Source: an uncultured Eubacterium sp.
Lineage (GTDB): Bacteria; Bacillota; Clostridia; Lachnospirales; Lachnospiraceae
Assembly: GCA_905236295.1 (NCBI GenBank)
Contig: CAJOQF010000261.1
Location: forward strand, 1 to 7,017
Length of the DNA stretch: 7,017 nt
Direction of reading: 5' to 3'
Shown: one piece after another, positions 3,065 through 7,017 of the stretch
How the letters are laid out: every line of letters starts with the position of its first letter
Numbering within the stretch: the stretch's first letter is position 1
Made by a program: the position numbers and the translations under genes
The notes under the pieces: model-generated
What the model was told of the DNA's origin: nothing
Database searches by the model: none
The model's input: only the letters and a program-made list of their open reading frames with translations

Positions 3065-3109
3065 AAAAAGTGCAGCTGTCAGAGTTAATTACTCTCTAAC
3101 AACTACACT
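3063..3109 (-). terminator. Rho-independent terminator of the isomerase-SufE operon
   Basis: The arms AGTGTAGTTGTTAGAG and CTCTGACAGCTGCACT pair over 16 bp with three G-U pairs and a 9-base loop, followed by a run of T on the minus strand. The 5' arm includes the last sense codons of the SufE-like gene, and its stop codon lies in the loop. Confidence 0.88.
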
Positions 3110-3520
3110 GTTTTCAAGTTTACCGATGATTGCCCGTATGCCCTTAAGCTGCTCTGCGGTAAAGTGCCCGGTAAAATCAGCACACTCTAAAAGCTTACAG
3201 CTATATTCACTTAACTCGCGCAATTCCCTGTCATTAAAGACCTCCTGCAAAAGTGCCATAGCGCCCTTTACGATTATGGATTCACTGTCCGCCAGGAACA
3301 CGAATCTATCCCCTGCCACATCAGAATACACCCAAGTTTTAACCTGACACTCCTTTATACGATGTGCTTCATCCCTGTATTCCTCAGGGTAAGGAATGCA
3401 CTCCGATGCACATGATATAAGATAGGTGTACTGACTTATATCATCCTCAAGCTCGGTCAAGTCACGTATGATATCGGCCTCAGTTTTTTCGGCACTCATT
3501 CTCACTTCATTATCAATCAT
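3089..3520 (-). CDS. SufE-like sulfur-acceptor protein
   Basis: SufE proteins accept persulfide sulfur from a cysteine desulfurase (SufS or CsdA) on a conserved cysteine and pass it on, classically to the SufBCD Fe-S scaffold in the cytoplasm. The 143-residue product covers the whole family domain: the opening helix IIRDLTELEDDISQYTYLI, the active-site segment RIKECQVKTWV with C58 at the position of the SufE GCQSxVW cysteine, then FLADSESIIVKGAMALL and a C-terminal helical part ending EQLKGIRAIIGKL. The usual glycine before the cysteine is glutamate. I choose ATG at 3520, which overlaps the preceding stop by 8 nt and suggests translational coupling; TTG at 3544 would add 8 residues but has a poor ribosome site. 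No desulfurase or other suf gene is in the window, so the donor and target are unknown. It could be a housekeeping SufE or an operon-dedicated paralogue. Confidence 0.82.
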   Translation of the reverse strand: MIDNEVRMSAEKTEADIIRDLTELEDDISQYTYLISCASECIPYPEEYRDEAHRIKECQVKTWVYSDVAGDRFVFLADSESIIVKGAMALLQEVFNDRELRELSEYSCKLLECADFTGHFTAEQLKGIRAIIGKLENSVVVRE

Positions 3521-3941
3521 AGCCTGTTTCTCTTTTCTCGACAATCTTTTTATAAATAAGCTTCTTTAAATCTGTAAATGTCTCTATCGGAGCGCTCTCC
3601 TCTGCCTCGATCTTTATCTCATATTCCCTGTTTACAGCAAGAAGGAACAAAACTTTCTTATTCATGGCCGTTGTCGCCCCACCGCATTTTGACGCCAGCT
3701 CCGCCGCATCAAGCATCCCCTTGGGAAGATTTGATGCTTTTTCGGCAGACAACCTACATATCTCATAGAAATCATCCGTGACGATCTCATCTTTGACCAG
3801 TAAGAATTTCTCACAGAGATAATCCGTAAACAGATCTGAAAATTCGTCGTAACCGAGTTCGGTGTTATTTAAAATCGAGCCGACAATTTTCATTGCCGAC
3901 TCTTTCTTTGATATTATCATCTTCTTGATATCTTTTCGCAT
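3513..3941 (-). CDS. Protein of unknown family with acyl-carrier-like C-terminal half
   Basis: A 142-residue, charged, soluble protein without signal peptide or membrane segment; I do not recognise the family. It looks all-helical. Residues about 95-131 (KKVLFLLAVNREYEIKI, then IETFTDLKKLI) resemble helices 2-4 of acyl carrier proteins (compare VELVMALEEEFDTEI then TTVQAAIDYI). The position of the phosphopantetheine serine is not serine; a CGG motif (86-88) lies shortly before. Thus, if the fold is right, it is not a classical carrier, and C86 is a candidate functional residue. GGAGG lies 6 nt before the ATG. The gene starts 15 bp after the isomerase-like gene and overlaps the SufE-like gene, so it very likely works with both. 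The ACP resemblance is my own reading by eye and could be chance. Confidence 0.7.
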   Translation of the reverse strand: MRKDIKKMIISKKESAMKIVGSILNNTELGYDEFSDLFTDYLCEKFLLVKDEIVTDDFYEICRLSAEKASNLPKGMLDAAELASKCGGATTAMNKKVLFLLAVNREYEIKIEAEESAPIETFTDLKKLIYKKIVEKRETGYD

Positions 3942-3956
3942 GATGCGCCTCCACAG

Positions 3957-5483
3957 CTAGGCAACGATTACTTCCAAGCCCAATATCTGTCCGAGCATTT
4001 TTGCTTCCTCAACGTGATCACCGAATACAGTCGGCATGTGTAATCCGAAACGGGACTGCTTTCTGAAGTAATCGAGCTTATCCTCAACCGAGAAGTAGAT
4101 TCCCTCCGAACAACCCGTCGTCTCATACCCAAAGCCTCCAACAACAGTCCCCTTCGCAACCATAAGCTTAGTGCATTCCGGATTGAAGCGGAGCAGGGTT
4201 ATGGTCTCTCCCTTATACTCATTAAAATCAATCCTCATGGTTGCACCAAAACCGCTGTTCGTAAACGGATGGAGCGCATACTCCATAGGCTCGGCGTCAA
4301 AACCATGCATGAGACGGTTTGGAGTCGCATGTCCGGTGTAATAAATATTCGGATCAGTATCCATCTCAGGGATATATCCGATACCTGCGTACTCGCCTTC
4401 AACACGTCCGTCCCTATATACACATGGCTGTGTGTTTGCCATATATGGCGCTTTGTGCGATATAGCTGCCAAAGCAATTATAGAATAGAGTCCAATCAGA
4501 TCGTATTCACATGCGGACGGTATGCCCATCTCATTTAACAATGTGTGATTAAAGCAGAATGTGAACTGTTCCTCATTCATCCTTCTGGTCGCACACACAT
4601 CCGGACAAGGCATAGTAAATGCATTGCATCCGAAATGCTCCATGAGCTTGCGCGCAAGCACCGATGCCTTTACCGAGTTTATTACAAACTCGCGCTTCAT
4701 ATCGTTTTCCCTTGCGTTATTGATATATTGATCTGCGATCTCATATACTTCTTTCATATCCTCGTCGGTGAGATTATATACATCCCTTCCAGGAAGCGTA
4801 TGATTCTTGTCGTTTTCATTCACATGCAGCATATCAAGAAATTCATGCGCGCTGAAATAATTGTATCGCACACCCAACCTCTCAGTAGCCGCATCATTAC
4901 AATACGTATCAACTCCCCCCAGAGAATCAACGGAATTGTACCTTGTCGCAGCCAGAATCCTGGTACCTGCCAGAGCTTTCTTTGCCCTTAGTGCCGCCAA
5001 AAGATTCATGCAATCCGACACATCGAGTATCGGATAAACATCCTCATAACCCCTTGCGGTCAATGTTGATGTTAAAACGGTGGATGCGAACATTCCCTCT
5101 GCCGCTATCGGAACATGGTACTTCATCGCAAACTCCTTTGCGATCTTCTCACACCTCATGCCTGTAAAAATATAGAGATCCGTGTCAGCAACATTCTTTG
5201 CAATAGCCGCTTCATCTTTCTCAGTGATAAAAAACTCGTCCGACATCTTTACGTATATGGGATCCAAAAGATTTACTCCGGTGACATGGCTTATCGCACC
5301 ACCGTACCCCTTCGTCCACGCTTTAAAGATCTCGGCCTGGTTCATAAGATCAAATTCTTTTGTGAGACATTCCTTAGGACCGAAGCGGCACGGCCCCTCA
5401 TATACATATTCGTGGATCAGCGCAACATAGACAAGCTGCACGTTCAAAGTGACATCCGTAACTTTCCTGATGTTAGTATACAT
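3957..5483 (-). CDS. L-fucose/L-arabinose isomerase-like protein
   Basis: A 508-residue cytoplasmic protein of the L-fucose/L-arabinose isomerase superfamily (COG2407-like), whose members interconvert aldoses and ketoses with a divalent metal. The C-terminal part is characteristic: HTLLNEMGIPSACEYDLIGL (313-332) carries E326 at the metal-ligand glutamate of FucI; GHATPNRLM (384-392) fits the HCTxP-like histidine segment (H385); and ETITLLRFNPECTKLMVAKG (426-445) is the closing strand region. The second metal ligand, an aspartate 24 residues after the glutamate in E. coli FucI, appears as N350, so activity may differ from a standard isomerase. It is shorter than FucI (591) and rich in cysteine, e.g. 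PCPDVC (292-297). AGGAGG lies 6 nt before the ATG. It heads an operon with the 142-aa and SufE-like genes and follows a LysR gene and LysR-type site. Substrate is unknown. Confidence 0.75.
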   Translation of the reverse strand: MYTNIRKVTDVTLNVQLVYVALIHEYVYEGPCRFGPKECLTKEFDLMNQAEIFKAWTKGYGGAISHVTGVNLLDPIYVKMSDEFFITEKDEAAIAKNVADTDLYIFTGMRCEKIAKEFAMKYHVPIAAEGMFASTVLTSTLTARGYEDVYPILDVSDCMNLLAALRAKKALAGTRILAATRYNSVDSLGGVDTYCNDAATERLGVRYNYFSAHEFLDMLHVNENDKNHTLPGRDVYNLTDEDMKEVYEIADQYINNARENDMKREFVINSVKASVLARKLMEHFGCNAFTMPCPDVCATRRMNEEQFTFCFNHTLLNEMGIPSACEYDLIGLYSIIALAAISHKAPYMANTQPCVYRDGRVEGEYAGIGYIPEMDTDPNIYYTGHATPNRLMHGFDAEPMEYALHPFTNSGFGATMRIDFNEYKGETITLLRFNPECTKLMVAKGTVVGGFGYETTGCSEGIYFSVEDKLDYFRKQSRFGLHMPTVFGDHVEEAKMLGQILGLEVIVA

Positions 5484-5603: not shown

Positions 5604-6503
5604 TCAAGATCGCTTTAAATGCAGTCTCCCCATAAACATTGCAACAAACGGATTCAGATTTTCTCTTTTCCACACAGCAACAAGCGCCATATTCTCTACG
5701 CTGCTATTCCGCTCAAAATTTATGACTCTCAGTCCATATTCCTCTATCTGAACTGCCTCCGTCGAAAGGAGCGCTACCCCTTTTCCGAGGCGTGCCTGCA
5801 ACAAAGCCGATTCCTGATTTGGGACATACTTTATCTTCCCTTCGGAGATATGATATGCATGAAGGATATACAGGAGATCTCTCTCCCTCCCCGGCGAATC
5901 CTTCTCCTCCGGCAAAAAGAAGACCTCATCCTTAAGATCGGATATTGACAGCTTATCCTTCCCATAGAGAAAGTGTCTCTTTGATATTACCATGCACGGC
6001 TTTAAGTCTTTTATGTGATCCGCCACAACATCATCGTTTATGTTCACAAGGTCAAAATCATATGTAAAAATGACATCATATCTGTCCGCATGAAGTCCCT
6101 TTCTGAGATCTCCGAACGACTCAAACGAAAGCGTGATATCAAGATCTTTACACCGCTCAGACAACCCTTCTATTGCTGGGATCAAAAGTCTGTCCGCATC
6201 GATCTCCGTAAGAATCCCGATATTAAGTGCATCACGCTTTGACGCCTTCAGTTCCCTCGTCTGTCCGAGCGCAACATCGATCAGTTGCTCCATCTTCTTG
6301 CAGCAGTTCAGCATTATCGCCCCCTCCGGCGTAAGCCTGAGCCCACGGTTTGAGCGCTCAAACAACTTTACGCCCCAATCAAACTCGAGGTCAGCGATCT
6401 GCCTGCTTATAGTCGGCTGGGTGGTGTAGCGTTTTTTTGCCACTGCCGAGAAACTCAGCTCCCGCCCGACTTTCAAAAATACATCTATCTTCTCTGAGAT
6501 CAT
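5604..6503 (-). CDS. LysR-family transcriptional regulator
   Basis: A 299-residue LysR-type regulator of standard length. The N-terminal winged helix spans about residues 1-62, with LSFSAVAKKRYTTQPTISRQ (16-35) containing the recognition helix and VKLFERSNRGLRLTPEG (45-61) the wing; a linker helix follows to about 88. The effector-binding domain starts at LNIGIL (93-98) and runs to the end. Such proteins act as tetramers and respond to a small molecule linked to their target pathway. The gene is read in the same direction as the isomerase-SufE operon, 120 bp upstream, with a matching palindrome in between, so activation of that operon is the likely role. No terminator separates them, so some read-through is possible. 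A purine-rich AAGGTG lies about 10 nt before the ATG. I see no consensus promoter of its own in 6504-6577. Confidence 0.93.
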   Translation of the reverse strand: MISEKIDVFLKVGRELSFSAVAKKRYTTQPTISRQIADLEFDWGVKLFERSNRGLRLTPEGAIMLNCCKKMEQLIDVALGQTRELKASKRDALNIGILTEIDADRLLIPAIEGLSERCKDLDITLSFESFGDLRKGLHADRYDVIFTYDFDLVNINDDVVADHIKDLKPCMVISKRHFLYGKDKLSISDLKDEVFFLPEEKDSPGRERDLLYILHAYHISEGKIKYVPNQESALLQARLGKGVALLSTEAVQIEEYGLRVINFERNSSVENMALVAVWKRENLNPFVAMFMGRLHLKRS

Positions 6504-6577: not shown

Positions 6578-6932
6578 TTACTGTAACAACCACTTTGTCA
6601 GATCCAATACCTTTATCCCTTCAATGTCGTAATCCTCATGTGCCGTGTTTGCGATTAATACTTTAGGATATGCATCTTTAATTGATTTTAGTGGAGATAA
6701 CTCTCGTTCTAATGTATCTGGATCAGAAATATTATCAGATACCTGAATATACAGCTTTTCATTTTGCTTCATAACTACGAAATCTATCTCCTTCTGATAT
6801 AGCTTTCCGACATATATCTCATAACCTCTTCTGATCAATTCTAATGCAACTATATTTTCATAGGCTCGTCCATAATCCATACTTATCAACCAGATCACGT
6901 TTTATAATTGTAGTATAAACATCCTTTATATC
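6578..6932 (-). pseudogene. Remnant of a DUF4143/AAA_14-type ATP-binding protein
   Basis: Intact members are around 400 residues, with an AAA_14 P-loop domain and a C-terminal DUF4143 domain. Here the frame 6578-6898 gives the C-terminal domain, from [20 protein letters not shown] through [13 protein letters not shown] to the end. Just upstream, in another frame (6932 down to about 6875), [18 protein letters not shown] matches the segment that normally precedes the DUF4143 core by many residues. The P-loop part and the linking region are missing and the two pieces are out of frame, joined around a tandem TATGGAT/TATGGAC. A GTG at 6898 or ATG at 6880 could start a roughly 100-residue protein, but no ribosome site is convincing. 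A decayed gene is the best explanation. Confidence 0.75.
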
Positions 6933-6981: not shown

Positions 6982-7017
6982 GCCCGAAAAATCAACATTT
7001 CGCTTGATTTTTCGGGC
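6982..7017. terminator. Hairpin at the right edge, probable terminator
   Basis: GCCCGAAAAATCAA and TTGATTTTTCGGGC form a perfect 14-bp stem with an 8-base loop. On the minus strand TTTG follows, a short tail; on the plus strand the sequence after the stem is outside the window. It probably ends a gene beyond the right edge, or acts in both directions. Confidence 0.6.

Follow-up and report, generated by a model that had tools for sequence, protein, structure and literature searches.

The cysteine desulfurase and sulfur acceptor pairs SufS-SufE and CsdA-CsdE are, together with the L-fucose isomerase superfamily and the acyl carrier proteins (ACPs), the closest described counterparts of the system analyzed here. 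SUF systems of Gram-positive bacteria are described as lacking SufE (PMC8300815). The present analysis concerns a stretch of 7,017 nt from an uncultured Eubacterium sp. (contig CAJOQF010000261.1, assembly GCA_905236295.1; the window), in which a SufE gene forms an operon with genes for a protein predicted to adopt the L-fucose isomerase (FucI) fold and for a small protein, P2, predicted to adopt an acyl-carrier fold. SufS, SufE, P2, and a FucI-like gene together make up a conserved four-gene module, of which this operon represents one form. The module shares the SufS and SufE families and their catalytic cysteines with the SufS-SufE and CsdA-CsdE pairs but, unlike them, lacks SufBCD and has P2 and the FucI-fold protein as partners. 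The fold of each part is known, but neither the P2 family nor the desulfurase-linked FucI family nor the module that joins them appears to have been described, and a search of the available literature found no paper on this combination.

The operon and its conserved module

The three genes in the window lie head to tail on the minus strand: the FucI-fold gene (3957..5483, 508 aa), P2 (3513..3941, 142 aa), and SufE (3089..3520, with ATG at 3520 and a TTG at 3544 also open as a start), followed by a terminator hairpin on the same strand (3069..3109; 16 bp, then seven U; −26.3 kcal/mol, z −6.1). The 15-bp gap between the first two genes, the 8-nt overlap of P2 with SufE (from the ATG at 3520), and the single terminator after the third gene are as given in the original prediction, confirming that the operon is real. 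SufE, which matches PF02657 with 89 bits against a curated cut-off of 27, is the only one of the three proteins with a Pfam family above cut-off.

When named genomes were searched with the alignment of FucI-like proteins, 76 loci were obtained, the top 80 of 91 relatives being retained. The window and eight further stretches bring these to 85 loci, every one of which was found via its FucI-like protein and not all of which are independent (L047 and L070 share a record, and L094 and L114 apparently a genome). They belong mostly to Firmicutes and Eggerthellaceae/Coriobacteriia, including Eubacterium ramulus, E. oxidoreducens, Flavonifractor, Gordonibacter, Ellagibacter, Raoultibacter, Adlercreutzia, and Christensenella. 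Model searches detected the FucI-like gene in 85/85 loci, P2 in 76/85, SufE in 65/85, and a SufS-type desulfurase in 62/85, the last count including four desulfurases of the TIGR01977 kind (L117-L120) and one IscS-like protein (L082); additional SufS-type matches in L079 and L094 proved to be other pyridoxal-phosphate enzymes.

Gene-order and neighbor counts excluded FucI pieces shorter than 1300 nt (6/100). Downstream of 94 FucI-like genes of full length, taken from the named genomes and the window, the next module gene is P2 in 68 cases, SufE in 11, SufS in five, and another FucI in five, with none in the remaining five. Where more than 4 kb of sequence was available on each side (52 FucI-like genes), P2 is found within 6 kb of 50, SufE of 46, a SufS-type gene of 39 (one IscS-like, in L082), and all three of 37. 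Orthologues of the operon genes are thus often neighbors, contrary to the outcome that would have told against a shared function. The desulfurase sought beside them was found as a true SufS in E. ramulus, whose copy scores 503 bits against the TIGR01979 cut-off of 475.1. The earlier statement that SufS and SufBCD are missing therefore holds for the 7-kb window, which contains neither, but not, as far as SufS is concerned, for the system. In L040, L041, and L101, all outside the Firmicutes, the FucI gene has no partner genes in the DNA examined around it. A same-genus genome carries a relic of the operon (L115:9246-9707, minus strand): an N-terminal part of FucI (72% identity across 69 residues) passes directly into a C-terminal part of SufE, the sequence between them being absent. 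A TRAP transporter and a flavin adenine dinucleotide (FAD)-reductase operon adjoin it.

Less biased evidence than the 85-locus counts comes from genome searches at the family and class levels and from a motif comparison. In the sample of the window's own family, SufE occurs in 4/150 genomes (its own included), always adjoining a FucI-like gene; the probability of this overlap by chance, counting the six genomes with a FucI match above 160 bits, is 7e-7, rising to 2e-5 when the own genome is left out. An even sample of the class (391 genomes) contained P2 in two genomes, SufE in the same two, and the FucI family in both, with a single distant member in addition; the own genome is among the two positives, leaving a single independent genome, with the gene order FucI-P2-SufS-SufE. 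In the family search, a desulfurase flanks 8/8 FucI-fold genes with an EGPC motif other than the window's, whereas P2, SufE, or SufS flanks 0/21 of those without it, in a comparison whose comparator loci are shorter (2.3-3.3 kb versus 4.0-4.5 kb) and which left out five more weak matches without a locus. In the genomes sampled, SufE is confined almost entirely to the surroundings of this FucI family.

The conserved cassette and this co-occurrence contradict the notion that the genes are chance neighbors and SufE an ordinary Fe-S (iron-sulfur) assembly factor, a notion with next to no probability even though Fe-S assembly is the role for which SufE is best known; in addition, the housekeeping Fe-S genes are located elsewhere. 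No SUF assembly operon is present in the window, and the sole SUFBD match of the assembly (80% complete) is on contig C165. The desulfurases of this assembly are only 29-30% identical, and one of them stands beside NifU/IscU on contig C74. Because of this pair and the SUFBD protein, the window SufE is, as far as visible, not the genome's housekeeping sulfur acceptor, and the case in which a sole SufE serves a SufS elsewhere was not seen. At the edge of contig C349 in the same genome lies the C-terminal end of a second SufE (L123:2-121), cut by the contig end and 42.5% identical to E. oxidoreducens SufE over 40 residues, suggesting that another module copy is missing from the assembly.

Pairing of P2 with the FucI-fold enzyme

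Gene fusions, copy numbers, and sequence distances distinguish the members of the module. Among the 85 loci, fusions in a single open frame join P2 to SufS in four, SufE to P2 in two, and SufS to SufE in one. Of 16 loci with at least two FucI genes, 12 also carry at least two P2 genes and 13 have exactly one SufE; L033 combines five FucI and six P2 genes with one SufS and one SufE. For FucI and P2, the sequence distances of 82 pairs show a correlation of 0.88, and in the common set (n=44) the correlation with FucI is 0.92 for P2, 0.67 for SufE, and 0.46 for SufS; shared ancestry inflates all three values, none of which was reached in 999 permutations, so that it is their ranking that matters. 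Paralogues inside one locus match their own partner in 22/26 tests. On the basis of these copy numbers, correlations, and matches, FucI and P2 look like a specific pair, and SufS and SufE like a common supply.

Conserved residues were scored after the exclusion of sequences that were too short (6/58 SufS, 6/100 FucI, and 1/90 P2). Cys86 of P2 (codon 3684..3686, minus strand) is invariant in 89/89 sequences, as is Lys95. The FucI-like family has three extra cysteines, C32 (94/94), C297 (94/94), and C458 (93/94). The acceptor cysteine of SufE (KECQ motif; codon 3347..3349, minus strand) aligns with cysteine in 65/65 sequences, the window included, and the catalytic cysteine of SufS is conserved in 52/52.

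The P2-SufS and SufE-P2 fusions would also suit a P2 that belongs to the desulfurase or to the FucI-like enzyme as a subunit with a structural or activating role, in the manner of the ACP in the mitochondrial desulfurase complex, with SufE alone delivering the sulfur. The fold matches of P2 do include the ACPs of NFS1-ISD11 complexes, though many other ACPs as well. However, P2 follows FucI far more closely than membership of the desulfurase would require (0.92 versus 0.46 for FucI and SufS), and its cysteine is invariant, making such a role improbable.

Proposed sulfur relay, regulators, and neighboring genes

In the relay proposed here, membership of the two families implies that SufS draws sulfur from cysteine, with SufE as its acceptor. 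P2 Cys86, the putative persulfide site, would then receive the persulfide and hand it on to the FucI-fold enzyme, a transfer that we infer from the fusions, the FucI-P2 pairing, and the invariance of the cysteine. The sulfur would end on C32, C297, and C458 of the enzyme, as a persulfide or a metal-sulfur center that the enzyme needs, and one SufS/SufE pair would supply several FucI-P2 pairs. The substrate of the enzyme itself would be a small molecule of sugar-like or enediol-like character, and a LysR or PucR-type regulator may switch on expression. This relay, including its order, the persulfide form, and the end point on the enzyme, is offered with confidence a little short of even. The original prediction is supported in part: its idea of a shared function and a sulfur route largely stands, with a complete module within 6 kb of 37/52 genes; of the two sulfur targets that it allowed, a small substrate and the isomerase-like protein itself, both are retained.

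The commonest neighbors outside the module are regulators, which occur in 47/77 loci (PucR-type clusters in 27 and LysR clusters in 20), and transporters of the sugar (MFS_2) or TRAP type are sometimes nearby; neighboring open reading frames were called by a simple procedure that is noisy in high-GC loci, and the names given to the regulator and transporter clusters rest on a few representatives. In the window, a LysR-type gene upstream of the operon (5604..6503, minus strand; PF00126 and PF03466) probably regulates it, and its cluster is found near the module in 7/77 loci. A distant clade (L117-L120 and L141) combines FucI-like genes of the same cysteine signature with a TIGR01977-like desulfurase, although the two desulfurases tested scored slightly below the cut-off of 377 (360 and 362 bits). 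In L117, L118, L119, and L141, a protein of about 100 residues with a conserved-looking cysteine is encoded beside these genes; two such proteins tested had no Pfam or NCBIfam match. GH31 hydrolases (L119 and L120) and sugar transporters, including the ATP-binding cassette type, surround this clade, hinting at sugar-like substrates.

A dedicated regulator, occasional sugar or TRAP transporters, and the GH31 surroundings of the distant clade are all compatible with the same relay having sulfur as a substrate, which the FucI-like enzyme would place on a sugar- or polyphenol-like molecule to make a thio-compound; the FucI fold is established to handle hydroxy-carbonyl and enediol compounds. Against this course, which is considered rather unlikely, no gene using or exporting a thio-product recurs beside the module, and one SufS and one SufE are shared by as many as five FucI-P2 pairs in different positions. 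Retention of the sulfur in the enzyme is preferred on account of these same two observations.

Other neighbors would suit a module that supports enzymes of selenium or molybdenum, its desulfurase then working as selenocysteine lyase or molybdenum cofactor sulfurase. In Ellagibacter (L059) the module lies, as judged by eye, amid SelA-, SelB-, SelD-, YedF-, and formate dehydrogenase-like genes, in E. ramulus (L043) it adjoins, again by eye, a molybdate transporter, and a molybdenum-oxidoreductase cluster lies at most 2.5 kb from it in 6/77 loci. Such neighbors are rare and lineage-bound compared with the regulators in 47/77 loci, and this function is very improbable.

Elsewhere in the window, a sodium:dicarboxylate symporter is encoded on the minus strand (3-1241), the N-terminal part of which weakly resembles a histidine-kinase ATPase domain at 24.9 bits, short of the 27.4 cut-off. 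A sigma-70 promoter match, perfect at 12/12 positions, is located at 2954-2982 on the minus strand, upstream of an AAA-ATPase-like gene (1822-2862). The extreme end (6982-7017) holds a perfect 14-nt inverted repeat, past a DUF4143-like fragment (6578-6898).

Comparison with known isomerases and sulfur carriers

In the sampled Clostridia, SufE occurs only in this module and so marks a sulfur route with unannotated carrier-like and enzyme families, spread over gut Firmicutes and Eggerthellaceae. If sulfur is indeed handed from cysteine to an isomerase-like enzyme, this would be a new use of sulfur, and it raises the testable question of which reaction in these bacteria requires cysteine-derived sulfur. 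Several of the bacteria that carry the module are known to degrade polyphenols. E. ramulus and Flavonifractor are also so described in a published account (PMC10470551).

The FucI-fold protein has the same predicted three-domain fold, over its full length, as L-fucose isomerase, L-arabinose isomerase, and the COG2407/sulfoquinovose isomerase (SftI) proteins, and its Glu326 and His385 align with conserved residues. In contrast to them, the window family carries the extra C32, C297, and C458, has a linked desulfurase, and has Asn350 (codon 4434..4436, minus strand) instead of an acidic residue at a presumed metal-site position. Asn350 is present in 93/94 members of the family, whereas the position is acidic in 5/5 COG2407-type relatives and in E. 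coli AraA; the alignment of E. coli FucI is unreliable there. The presumed second metal-site position thus lacks the acidic residue of the superfamily, and the protein is not an SftI, scoring 15.4 bits against the curated 700 of NF048012.

P2 resembles ACPs in its predicted fold and in a weak profile match. Unlike ACPs, it has Met93 in place of the phosphopantetheine serine (serine in 4/89 relatives), no DSL motif, and the invariant Cys86 instead. To our knowledge, no persulfide carrier with an ACP fold has been described. It is tentatively proposed, at rather lower confidence than the relay itself, that P2 may be an ACP-fold protein turned persulfide carrier, in which Cys86, just ahead of helix II, has replaced phosphopantetheine, and that in a dedicated relay with SufS-SufE it may arm FucI-fold enzymes that, as a whole class in gut anaerobes, depend on sulfur. 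The relay would then be a sulfur cofactor system separate from the Fe-S, thiamin, molybdenum cofactor, lipoate, and tRNA pathways. TusA and ThiS/MoaD would be its nearest functional analogs, being likewise small proteins that hand cysteine-derived sulfur to an enzyme, but they differ from P2 in fold.
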